DNA of 45,449 bases from Butyrivibrio sp. (GTDB lineage: Bacteria > Bacillota > Clostridia > Lachnospirales > Lachnospiraceae). The position numbers and the translations under genes were made by a program. Position 1 is the first letter of the stretch. Each line of letters opens with the position of its first letter. The notes beneath the pieces are model-generated. The model was not told where the DNA came from and made no database searches. It saw nothing but the letters and a program-made list of their open reading frames with translations. Below are positions 21,428 to 24,779 of the stretch, piece after piece. The stretch spans positions 1-45,449 of the forward strand of contig JAILPB010000010.1 of NCBI GenBank assembly GCA_024690485.1. The letters run 5' to 3'.

Positions 21428-21811
21428 ATGGGTCTTGATATGAACAGTTTCGGTGTATCCGGTATATCTCAATATGCTAAAAATGAAGCGCTAAACAGTG
21501 CATCCGAAATGGTGAGGAATGCCAAAACCAAGGCAGAAAATGCTAAGAATGCAGGTGAAAAGGAAGAAATAAACCAGGAACTTATGGATGCCTGCAAGCA
21601 GTTCGAAGCCTACATGCTTGAGCAGATCTTTAAAGGATACGAAGAGACTAACAAGGTATTCTCCAAGGAAAAATCCGGATCCATGAACACTATGGTGGAT
21701 TACTTCAAGGATTTCGCTATTCAGGATATATCAGCGCAAGCATCAGATACGCAGAGCACAGGACTTGCGCAGATGCTATACGAGAACATGAAACGCAACT
21801 ACGGTTTATAA
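21428..21811 (+). CDS. flgJ: FlgJ-type rod-binding protein without muramidase domain
   Basis: The 127 residues contain the rod-binding domain (PF10135-like): CKQFEAYMLEQIFKGYEET in the middle, a MNTMVDYFKDFAIQDIS segment, and a C-terminal GLAQMLYENMKRN helix. Proteobacterial FlgJ adds a muramidase domain, which is absent here, as is usual in Firmicutes. The N-terminal 50 residues are Ala/Lys/Asn-rich and probably flexible. The domain chaperones or caps rod assembly. GAGGGG lies 6 bases before the ATG. It ends the flagellar cluster and is followed by a terminator. Confidence 0.85.
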   Translation: MGLDMNSFGVSGISQYAKNEALNSASEMVRNAKTKAENAKNAGEKEEINQELMDACKQFEAYMLEQIFKGYEETNKVFSKEKSGSMNTMVDYFKDFAIQDISAQASDTQSTGLAQMLYENMKRNYGL

Positions 21812-21842
21812 AACTATTTCTTAATCTAAACCAATACGAGGG

Positions 21843-21880
21843 GCTGCCATCACAAATAAACATGGCAGCTCCCTTTATGT
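21843..21880 (+). terminator. Intrinsic terminator after flgJ
   Basis: GCTGCCAT pairs perfectly with ATGGCAGC over an 11-base loop, extended by G-rich/C-rich bases, then a T-rich run. It closes the flagellar operon. Confidence 0.8.
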
Positions 21881-21886
21881 TTTATA

Positions 21887-22505
21887 TATACACGTTTTGG
21901 CCCTGCAGGAATTTTGCGCCCCGCGTCCGCTGCCTGCGCCCCGTCATTTTCGGGGGGCGAATAAATATCATTATTTGCTGCCTACTTATAGTTACATCTC
22001 TTCTTGTACCGCTCCGCAGAGCATGAAATTCAGCCGGTTCTCTTTTCTTATTTTATGCAAGAAGCGAGAAACTCAAATCTGAACAGGCATAATATCTAAT
22101 ATATATGAATTTGAGCGGGTTACGATGAGTTTAGATTTATCTTATGCTCGCAAAGGCGCTTTATGCGTGCATGTGAGCAATTTGTTTGAGCACAGCGAGT
22201 TTTGCGCACATGCACTATTAAGCAAAAGCGTCTGCGAGCATTAGATAAATCAAACGAAGAATATCCAGGCCTCAAATTCATATATATCAGATATGTACAG
22301 CCGTCAGATTTTCAAACAGCCCGCTTCTTGCATAAGTTAAGAGAACCGGCTGGATTTCATTGCGTCGCTGATGGGGTCCAATCAGAGATGTAACCATAAA
22401 TCCGGCAGCAAATATTATAGTTTTGTTTTACCCCCGAAAATGACGGGGCGCTGTACTACGGACGCGGGGCGCGTGGAAATTGTGGGCAGGGCCAAAACGT
22501 GTATA
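21887..22505. repeat. Imperfect inverted repeat of about 620 bp (two arms of about 300 bp)
   Basis: The whole gene-free stretch between flgJ and recD2 is one giant palindrome centred near 22191-22196. Blocks shared in inverse order include TATACACGTTTTGGCCCTG (21887-21905 with 22487-22505) and GCGCCCCGCGTCCG (21916-21929 with 22459-22472). A 21-base GC-rich block pairs 21936-21956 with 22431-22451, and ATTTGCTGCC pairs 21973-21982 with 22404-22413. TTATGCAAGAAGCG pairs 22053-22066 with 22322-22335, and GTGCATGTG pairs 22167-22175 with 22207-22215. My hand alignment suggests about 70-75% arm identity with small indels. Each arm also holds its own CCCC/GGGG hairpin. No convincing ORF, no transposase, no clear target duplication. 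Confidence 0.85.
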
Positions 22506-22507
22506 AT
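22480..22507 (+). promoter_or_regulatory. Promoter for recD2 at the outer edge of the inverted repeat
   Basis: TTGTGG, 16 bases, then TATAAT. The -10 box lies at the very end of the right arm. A GGGG/CCCC hairpin (22519-22534) follows directly before the recD2 binding site. Confidence 0.5.
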
Positions 22508-22547
22508 ATACTACCGAAGGGGGCGAGAACCCCGGGTTAGGAGGAAC

Positions 22548-24779
22548 ATGGAAGTTTTTAAGGGTTATGTTGACCATTTTATATATAAGAATGAGGACAA
22601 TGGCTATGGAGTTATGGTCTTTGTGTGTGACGGGGAGGAGATGACCTGTGTTGGTATTTTTCATGATGTCGATACGGGAGATACTCTGGAGCTTACCGGT
22701 GAGATGGTGGAACATCCGGTTTATGGTGAGCAGTTAAAAGTTACGGAGCATAAGATTTCCGTGCCTGACGATGCGGAGTCCATAGAAAGGTATCTTGGAT
22801 CCGGCGCAATTAAGGGCATCGGCGAGACCATGGCAAGGCGAATAGTTAAAAAGTTTGGCGCAGACACCTTCAGGATCATTGAGGATGAACCTGAGAGACT
22901 TGCTGAAATAAAAGGTATTAGCGAGAGAAAAGCAAGAGATATTGCTATCCAGCTTAATGAAAAGCGGCAGATGCGTGACGCCATGGTATTTTTGTCGGGT
23001 TATGGTATCACAAATGCCATGGCCGTTAAGATCTATGAAAAATACGGTGATGCCATATACCAGATTTTAAAGGAAAATCCTTACAGACTTGCAGACGATA
23101 TCGAAGGTATCGGTTTTAAAACTGCTGATGAGATTGCTTCCAAGATCGGCATAAAGGTTGATTCCGACTACAGAATAAGAAGCGGAGTTCTCTATACCCT
23201 CTTGGAGAGCGCACAGGACGGAAACAGTTATCTTCCTAAAGGTTTGCTGATAAGAAAAAGTGCTGAACTTTTGAAAGTGGACGAAGGTCTTATTGAAGCA
23301 CAGATGGATAACCTTATGGTAGAGAGAAAGCTTGTGTATAAGGGCGAAGACCACGTGTATGCTTCATCCTACTTTTATGAGGAACAGGCTATTGCCGTGA
23401 TGCTTAGAGAGCTTAATCTGAAACTTCCCACATCCAAGGCTGCGGAAAAGGACCTTGAGAGCAGAATCCGTGCGATAGAGGATAAAAGAGGAATAGAGCT
23501 TGATGACCTTCAGAGAAGGGCGGCTATCGCAAGTGCGCAAAACGGTGTGGTTATTATTACCGGCGGCCCCGGAACAGGAAAAACAACCACCATAAACACT
23601 ATCATTCAATACTATGCAGAAGAGCAGATGGACATTGTTCTTGCAGCGCCCACAGGAAGAGCTGCCAAGAGAATGACTGAGGCTACAGGATACGAAGCAA
23701 GAACAATACACAGACTACTTGGAGTTGGCGGAATCCCTAATCAGGAAAACGGAGAGAGGGAAAGAGAGAGGATAAGGTTCGAGAAGAATGCTGATAATCC
23801 CCTTGAAGCAGATGCTATCATAATCGATGAGATGTCCATGGTGGATATGCACCTGTTTACAGCGCTGTTAAAAGCAGTGATTCCGGGAACACATCTCATC
23901 CTTGTGGGAGACAGCTCACAGCTTCCAAGTGTGGGCCCCGGACAGGTTCTTAGTGACCTTATAGAGAGCGGAGTGTACAATACCATAACTCTACAGAAGA
24001 TTTTCAGACAGGCAAAGCAAAGTGATATTGTAATGAATGCCCACCATATAAAAGGCGGCGAGCACTTTGTGATGGATAATAAGAGCAAAGACTTTTTCTT
24101 CCTTGAGAGAGACAATGCGGATGTTATCTATAAGCACATGATTCAGCTTATTAGAGATAAACTTCCCTCCTATGTTAACGCCCAAAGCCTTGATATACAG
24201 GTCCTTACGCCTATGAAAAGGGGACCGCTTGGCGCCGAGAATCTGAATGTGGTACTGCAAAAATACTTAAACCCTCAGGATGATAATAAAAAGGAATATG
24301 TCTACGGCGATCGCATAATAAGAGAAGGCGATAAAGTAATGCAGATTCACAACAACTATCAGGCTGAGTGGGAGATTCTCGGAAAATACGGAATTCCCAT
24401 TGAGAAGGGCATGGGTATCTTTAATGGCGATATGGGCACTGTCAAAGAGATTGATGACAGAATGAAGGAACTGACAGTTGAGTTTGATGAAAAAAGAGTG
24501 GTGAGATATCCTTTTTCTGAACTTGGAGAACTGGAGCTTGCTTATGCGATAACCATACATAAATCTCAGGGCTCAGAATATCCTGCGGTAATTCTTCCGT
24601 TACTGGGAGGACCCAGGATGCTCCTTAACAGAAATCTCTTGTATACTGCTGTAACCAGAGCTAAAAACTGCGTTGTCCTCCTTGGAAGCAGAGATACAGT
24701 AAATGAGATGATAGATAACGAATCACAGCTTAAACGCTATACGGGACTTAAGGAGAGAATTTTGGAGGTGGAGGATTGA
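22548..24779 (+). CDS. recD2: RecD2-type SF1B DNA helicase
   Basis: At 743 residues this fits RecD2 (RecD/TraA-like), a 5'-3' helicase acting alone, without RecBC. Order: an N-terminal OB-like domain (KGYVDHFIYKNEDNGYGVM), helix-hairpin-helix repeats (GAIKGIGETMARRIVKKFG, KGISERKARDIA), Walker A TGGPGTGKTTT, DEMSMVD, GDSSQLPSVGPG, and C-terminal motifs TIHKSQGSEYPAVI and YTAVTRAK. The open frame extends 59 codons upstream into the inverted repeat, but the ATG behind GGAGGA aligns with the family start. It works in DNA repair/fork maintenance. comFC overlaps its end. Confidence 0.93.
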   Translation: MEVFKGYVDHFIYKNEDNGYGVMVFVCDGEEMTCVGIFHDVDTGDTLELTGEMVEHPVYGEQLKVTEHKISVPDDAESIERYLGSGAIKGIGETMARRIVKKFGADTFRIIEDEPERLAEIKGISERKARDIAIQLNEKRQMRDAMVFLSGYGITNAMAVKIYEKYGDAIYQILKENPYRLADDIEGIGFKTADEIASKIGIKVDSDYRIRSGVLYTLLESAQDGNSYLPKGLLIRKSAELLKVDEGLIEAQMDNLMVERKLVYKGEDHVYASSYFYEEQAIAVMLRELNLKLPTSKAAEKDLESRIRAIEDKRGIELDDLQRRAAIASAQNGVVIITGGPGTGKTTTINTIIQYYAEEQMDIVLAAPTGRAAKRMTEATGYEARTIHRLLGVGGIPNQENGERERERIRFEKNADNPLEADAIIIDEMSMVDMHLFTALLKAVIPGTHLILVGDSSQLPSVGPGQVLSDLIESGVYNTITLQKIFRQAKQSDIVMNAHHIKGGEHFVMDNKSKDFFFLERDNADVIYKHMIQLIRDKLPSYVNAQSLDIQVLTPMKRGPLGAENLNVVLQKYLNPQDDNKKEYVYGDRIIREGDKVMQIHNNYQAEWEILGKYGIPIEKGMGIFNGDMGTVKEIDDRMKELTVEFDEKRVVRYPFSELGELELAYAITIHKSQGSEYPAVILPLLGGPRMLLNRNLLYTAVTRAKNCVVLLGSRDTVNEMIDNESQLKRYTGLKERILEVED

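Follow-up and report, generated by a model that had tools for sequence, protein, structure and literature searches.

A long foldback element upstream of recD2 in Butyrivibrio, probably a degenerate copy of a MITE-like DNA hairpin

We analyzed a stretch of 45 449 nt from a Butyrivibrio genome (the window), in which the gap between a flgJ-like gene and recD2 is occupied by an imperfect inverted repeat of ∼630 nt. Taken as a whole, this element is best explained as a degenerate copy of a non-autonomous mobile foldback, i.e. a MITE-like DNA hairpin that carries bubbles and a common tip and encodes no protein of its own; we favor this explanation with somewhat better than even confidence. Related foldbacks are dispersed, the insertion is specific to its lineage, target duplications flank elements in two genomes, the complementarity of the arms is strand-neutral and some bubbles are shared.

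RESULTS

An imperfect inverted repeat fills the gap upstream of recD2

The initial annotation had described a giant imperfect inverted repeat at 21887–22505, and this repeat is real: nine inverted pairs were found in the region 21600–22800, every one of them inside these coordinates, with 20 of 20 matching bases at the outer ends and 14 of 14 in another block. The coordinates are correct to a few bases, as extra pairing extends the element to about 21883–22510 (plus strand, as for all features below). Aligning the left arm (21887–22180) with the right arm (22202–22505) between positions 21880 and 22515 yielded 245 Watson–Crick columns, 6 G·U, 7 A·C, 23 transversion mismatches and 45 gap columns. 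The arm score of 230.5 compares with a mean of 18.9 and a maximum of 29 in 200 first-order Markov resamples and with at most 27 at 145 other places of the window. As a single strand, the element is predicted to fold into one rod interrupted by many bubbles, at −341 kcal/mol (plus strand) or −334 kcal/mol (minus strand). Also, the small GC-rich hairpin assigned to each arm can be drawn in both arms from the sequence.

The gap of 736 nt lies between a gene for a rod-binding (FlgJ-like) protein at 21428–21811 (PF10135, 26 bits versus a cut-off of 25.1) and one for a RecD2-type helicase at 22548–24779 (PF14490 and others). By eye, a terminator-like hairpin follows the upstream gene at 21838–21871, with the element just downstream; this hairpin is absent from the list of our terminator scan, whose loop limit was 8. 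The gap had been called gene-free, and the list of open reading frames (at least 100 aa) contains none inside the element except for the recD2 frame extended upstream from 22371. This extension aside, the window copy has, at that length, the lack of coding capacity that characterizes a MITE. The element had further been proposed to supply the −10 box of recD2. TATAAT is found at 22502–22507, although promoter-like matches (1 versus 2.3 expected) are at chance level, and we rejected promoter donation.

At the tip of the fold lies the motif GTTTGAGCACAGCGAGTT (22184–22201), a form of the family pattern GTYTGAGCGNAGCGAGTT described below. A core at 21985–22368 is 79% identical to a sister copy in the same genome (G000:C112:3969–4354, blastn). 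It contains a conserved left motif, CTCCGCAGAGCATGAAAT (22012–22029), present at five places of the genome with 0–1 mismatch, and, from copy comparison, its conserved right partner ATTTCATTGCGTCGC (22354–22368). An internal bubble with the left side CGGGTTACGATGAG (22116–22129) and the right side in the ACGAAGAATATCC region (22254–22267) is common to the C112 copy, as judged by copy comparison and arm alignment. Fold and arm alignment furthermore place CTTA (22141–22144) opposite TTAG (22241–22244) in a module with a T·T mismatch; CTT and TAG, similar to this module, are invariant in an alignment of 12 elements (A3, see below).

The element is an insertion in its own lineage

We searched 24 relatives of the same genus for recD2 and found a match in 23 (G048 has none). 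In all 23 loci (L144–L166) the flgJ-like gene adjoins recD2, and in none of them does a long foldback lie between the two genes. The window element is therefore an insertion in its own lineage and not an ancient locus; the insertion is probably old. The gaps in the relatives measure about 49–219 nt with one exception of about 715 nt (L161), and the longest palindrome in them, L161 aside, has 82 nt (L166). In the closest relative (L144) a terminator-like hairpin follows flgJ and recD2 starts within ∼25 nt; the window element is placed directly after a hairpin matching this one (both by eye). As had been annotated, no clear target duplication is visible around the window copy. L161 (G046), the sole relative with a long gap, carries other, shorter inverted repeats.

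Related foldbacks with diverged stems in the same genome

A blastn search of the window genome yielded further places on contigs C112, C68, C26 and C53, the last matching by 39 bases only and hence only weakly related. Self-comparison shows a long foldback at each of C112, C68 and C26, and the predicted fold shows one at C53; the genes beside them vary from copy to copy. Dispersed copies within one genome, as expected of a MITE, were found here and in other genomes. However, the five copies of the window genome do not share their ends in the way of terminal inverted repeats. Their outer stems are mutually unrelated, yet each is self-complementary: in the window copy, the outermost 105 nt of the left arm and about 140 nt of the right arm have no match in the C112 copy. 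The core helices also differ between copies yet pair, and in a four-copy core alignment (two rows were joined with an inner hairpin left out) 23 of 72 pairs carry two-sided changes. By its sequence, the C26 copy could derive from a C112-like form through loss of the segment between CGGG repeats. A profile from four short forms (covariance model R1), with which 36 candidates per genome were scored, matched C68 and C26, on both strands, and an unrelated palindrome of G031.

The C112 and C26 copies (L009:1969–2607 and L011:1579–2355) both adjoin genes for Rce1-like (CPBP) proteases, possibly by chance. Close to a tRNA gene, another locus of this genome (L043, G000:C104, ∼23.9 kb) has apparently unrelated inverted repeats that reach 296 bp at 86% identity.

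A common tip marks foldbacks in other genera and families

No pattern search was needed for the tip of the C112 copy to match loci of two other genera, both of which are foldbacks with other stems. The motif GTYTGAGCRCAGCGAGTT, with at most one mismatch, is found in 5 of 79 genomes of the genus: 93 times in G001, 87 in G002, 10 in G077, 2 in G037 and 2 in the window genome. Exact matches to GTYTGAGCGNAGCGAGTT occur in 36 of 397 sampled genomes of the family and in 33 of 391 sampled genomes of the class; 29 of these 33 lie outside the own family and represent 11 families. As many genera have foldbacks with this tip, an old inverted duplication as a one-off event, another reading of the initial annotation, is not supported and was rejected in favor of a dispersed family.

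We asked how often the tip sits between arms. Long matching arms (arm score of at least 42) were found at 58 of 61 distinct tip sites; the exceptions are L057, L106 and L112, and L110, near a contig end, was left out. At 31 further tip sites (13 on viral contigs, 17 in other families and 1 in the same family; L299 left out) most arms have less length and more bubbles. Nineteen of these sites exceed all 20 random-position controls, and 12 do not exceed the best of the 20, where some controls hit the element itself; arms at L321, L325 and L327 are also weak. The reversed-pattern control of the tip search was not empty: it gave 13 sites in G001, 9 in G002 and a few in the family and class scans, with as many control sites as tip hits in G569 and G807. 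In the fetched loci, each of the 14 reversed-pattern sites overlaps with a true tip site, as reversal leaves the motif almost unchanged. Since sites were gathered by their tip, conservation of the tip is partly by construction; that of the rest of the element is not.

Beyond the tip, no whole-sequence homology was detected between the window element and the elements of other genomes. An exact 20-mer scan of genome contigs gave seven matches, all without a second arm or more family sequence (two were read) and thus taken as chance. The left core motif had no exact match in the viral contigs scanned, and the genus blastn match in G045 is short and without foldback. In 36 elements the middle base of the tip (GC-GNA-GC) is A in 18, C in 14, T in 3 and G in 1; GNA triloops form unusually stable DNA mini-hairpins. 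The window copy has ACA at this position, a departure from the GNA form that fits an old copy. Within its genome, the tip is present on C61 and C112 only, and the other three foldbacks lack it.

Some further observations concern single loci. Two copies of G001 (L064 and L183) have an additional hairpin beside the tip, resulting in a branched tip. In IMG/VR, 14 viral-contig stretches (L298–L311) contain the tip motif, some of them at foldback tips; they are possibly derived from hosts or prophages. An element of G002 matches the Butyrivibrio fibrisolvens plasmid NZ_CP146964.1 with coordinates identical to those of G001 contig C2, and G001 evidently belongs to this species of Butyrivibrio. A Clostridiales-1 RNA (RF01699) lies within 1.5 kb of an element at L009:689–857 and at L096:2893–3018.

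Arms are compensated without preference for G·U pairs

At 14 apical positions, taking one element per genome (36 elements, 35 genomes), 11.4 positions pair within an element versus 6.4 when arms are swapped between genomes. The left stems of 27 well-paired elements share a mean identity of 27%, near the level of random sequence. Covariation was measured in the MAFFT alignment A3 of 12 elements from 11 genomes, a non-random sample picked for common GYGTTR and CTT/TAG bubbles (14 were prepared; L102 and L120 were omitted). It contains 45 consensus pairs, 37 of them with the compensatory change that is looked for in structured RNAs; 91.6% of cells pair versus 64.9% after shuffling, and the covariation is 0.743 versus 0.227, a value that 0 of 500 shuffles reached. 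Four bubble patterns were counted in 32 of the 36 elements (L064, L104, L109 and L110 were not used) and occurred 10, 12, 11 and 16 times versus shuffled means of 2.8, 2.4, 4.2 and 7.2. The shuffled maxima were 9, 6, 11 and 14, so that the third pattern does not go beyond shuffles.

Selection on an RNA is expected to favor G·U over A·C on the transcribed strand. We counted 14 G·U versus 18 A·C in the five window-genome copies, 139 versus 117 in the set of 61 sites (which includes two of these five copies) and 31 versus 26 at the 31 further sites; pooling the latter two sets gives 170 versus 143 (p = 0.14). In contrast, a simple stem count of 11 tRNAs from the same loci yielded 12 versus 2. As G·U does not exceed A·C, the pairing is kept at the level of DNA, whether by selection on the DNA fold, by copying from arm to arm, or by both. 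The orientation of neighboring genes relative to the tip strand was compared in 73 of 85 rows that had two neighbors and no open reading frame across the tip (three sites appear twice among the 85): neighbors run in the same direction in 19 versus 27 rows, 18 are convergent and 9 divergent. There is no clear sense bias towards neighboring genes (19 versus 27). Rfam gave no match at the gathering threshold over an element, neither in the window nor in 20 loci; below threshold only two miRNA-hairpin models matched, far under it. Of the structured RNA that had been suggested for the window, strong compensatory change is thus borne out, whereas a G·U bias, a match to a described family and a conserved locus are all absent. 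A conserved RNA locus was rejected, as the sites of the relatives are without the element and G·U is not favored.

Over short times the arms also drift apart. Flanks are common to only five pairs among 50 elements of G001 and 55 of G002, one of them on a single side only; since both sets were taken in coordinate order, this number is an indication and not a rate. In these five pairs, one-sided changes (85 breaking, 23 restoring and 5 others) exceed the 53 two-sided changes that keep a pair, and a further 17 two-sided changes break it. Flanks and outer arms of the pair L092/L132 agree, while its apical part differs on both arms, with 13 two-sided changes that keep a pair and 4 one-sided changes. 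Compensation is clear over long distances and not over short ones; this result counts against the explanation that we favor, and our confidence was slightly lowered for it.

Target duplications and empty sites in two genomes

Before target duplications were counted, 136 elements passed the limits for score and edge; 104 of them come from G001 and G002, and 18 of these carry both end motifs (CTSAAACTTCSCAC...GTGSGAAGTTTSAG). Direct repeats of 7–10 bp flank 9 of the 18 intact-ended copies, with 0.24 expected from swapped ends; these duplications are AT-rich and mostly 8–9 bp long. Without the filter for intact ends, duplications of at least 7 bp were found for 13 of 55 elements in G002 (∼2.2 expected), 2 of 49 in G001 (1.6 expected, i.e. 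not above chance) and 1 of the 32 others (∼0.6 expected); at a length of at least 6 bp, 9 of these 32 have one versus ∼2.4 expected. The end motif CTSAAACTTCSCACTTG, with at most one mismatch, occurs 99 times in G002 and 16 times in G001, with 0 in controls. Ends differ between the copies of the window genome and between genomes.

Four elements lie in a 16.5-kb stretch of G002; for three of them, the corresponding site in G077 or G001 is without the element. Terminator-like hairpins adjoin two of these three; the third has diverged flanks, and G001 is also without the gene between the first two elements. In three cases, a terminator nearby was noted on visual inspection. Inspection by eye of the end-motif matches in G001 and G002 revealed no recognizable version with the same ends that is longer and carries genes, and a scan of ten neighbor proteins gave no transposase domain. 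Among 25 tip-bearing panel genomes, some of them incomplete (e.g. G037 at 78%), 9 have no match to a Y1 transposase, while 22 of the 25 genomes that lack the tip pattern have one (a chosen panel). Y1 presence does not track the tip, and mobility by Y1 was rejected.

Relics consisting of two ends that face each other, 48–81 bp overall, were seen in G002 at C1:3599375–3599424, C1:4005093–4005142, C2:70642–70689 and C2:250209–250289. A different dispersed repeat of ∼125 nt and ∼90% identity lies at L232:5760–5895 (G002) and is found at more than 15 places in G001.

DISCUSSION

The foldback or MITE-like reading of the initial annotation is supported by the dispersed copies, the empty site in relatives and the existence of a wider family, whose elements are flanked by target duplications in some genomes. 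From these duplications we infer entry by a staggered double-strand cut. A transposase supplied in trans may recognize the extruded or single-stranded hairpin, with the tip (a GNA mini-hairpin), the bubbles and the local end sequence as putative cues. If the hairpin is recognized via tip and bubbles, selection would act on the DNA fold and not on the sequence of the helix. Template switching or conversion within the palindrome may copy changes from arm to arm, and copies could later decay through tip deletions. A wider proposal, which we put forward tentatively as a possibility, is that mobile hairpins throughout the class Clostridia are moved by an enzyme that reads the folded single strand, i.e. 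the GNA mini-hairpin tip together with bubbles spaced at fixed distances, rather than the sequence of the helix, in the manner of attC sites and with target-site duplication, the arms being subject to compensatory evolution at the DNA level.

An ordinary MITE, of which the transposase needs the ends only, would have an incidental palindrome that is kept matched by template switching in replication, and a common tip that was inherited from one ancestor or results secondarily from rapid hairpin folding. The target duplications and common ends in G002, the lack of a G·U bias, the relics of two ends alone and the apical part altered on both arms in L092/L132 all agree with this. However, ends vary between copies and genomes while the tip and some bubbles recur across genera, which end recognition alone does not predict, and template switching alone is expected to erase bubbles; we consider this explanation rather unlikely. 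The unrelated outer arms might also arise if one foldback inserted into the loop of another and built up a long hairpin, for which the outer 105 and about 140 nt of the window copy, unmatched in C112, and the individual outer stem of every sister copy speak. Yet the core helices differ just as fully between copies, so that helix turnover suffices without nesting, and no target duplication inside the element came to notice; nested insertions seem improbable.

A family of structured non-coding RNAs, with base pairing maintained in the transcript, would account for the strong compensatory change, the common internal loops and the very low folding energy of the window element. It is nevertheless very improbable: G·U about equals A·C whereas the tRNAs show 12 versus 2, the minus strand folds almost equally well, there is no clear sense bias, the only Rfam matches are the two far below threshold and relatives have no such element at this locus. 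Least of all do we expect an element of the REP/IS200 type moved as a single strand by a Y1 (HUH) transposase. Such elements are imperfect, bubble-bearing hairpins with an intergenic location and multiple copies, as are the foldbacks studied here; but target duplications, found at 7–10 bp around intact-ended copies, are not expected of them, and the Y1 gene is missing in 9 of 25 tip-bearing panel genomes (some incomplete) and present in 22 of 25 without the tip.

If the favored explanation of a mobile DNA hairpin is true, compensatory change, the usual hallmark of RNA structure, would here mark DNA hairpins, and counts of G·U versus A·C would tell the two apart. Covariation screens could then take mobile DNA for candidate RNAs. 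The family would furthermore provide a natural case in which to examine whether extruded DNA folds can be read by an enzyme of transposition.

The nearest kinds of elements are MITEs, attC sites and REPs. According to a review (PMC2229807), the bacterial MITEs RUP, Correia/NEMIS, CIR and YAPL/RU-2 are units of <200 bp, most of them with TA ends; with the present family they have in common that they are protein-free, mostly intergenic, multi-copy and hairpin-forming, with inverted repeats and, for the present family in some genomes, target duplications. The present family differs from those MITEs in its size of ∼200–630 bp, duplications of 7–10 bp, ends that vary with lineage, a common tip and bubbles, and freely changing stems. 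No description of the present family was found in the literature searched, a search to which most subscription journals were closed. Integron attC sites are imperfect palindromes that are recognized by their fold, with variable stems and conserved unpaired bases; they form cassette ends of about 60–140 bp and are used by a tyrosine integrase without target duplication. The present elements resemble them as imperfect palindromes with variable stems, conserved unpaired bases and, putatively, recognition by fold. In contrast to attC sites, they are longer, mostly scattered in the genome among the copies listed, and flanked by target duplications in some genomes. Eukaryotic Foldback (FB) elements likewise have long inverted repeats over most of their length; we know of none with a conserved tip and compensated stems. 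REP/BIME elements with RAYT (Y1) transposases are intergenic imperfect palindromes in many copies, whereas the present family has far longer arms, target duplications in some genomes and no link to a Y1 gene. Short palindromes including TGGGGACGGTTCTCTTGACTCA... were seen at L045:1455–1570 in G031; these resemble REP-type repeats.
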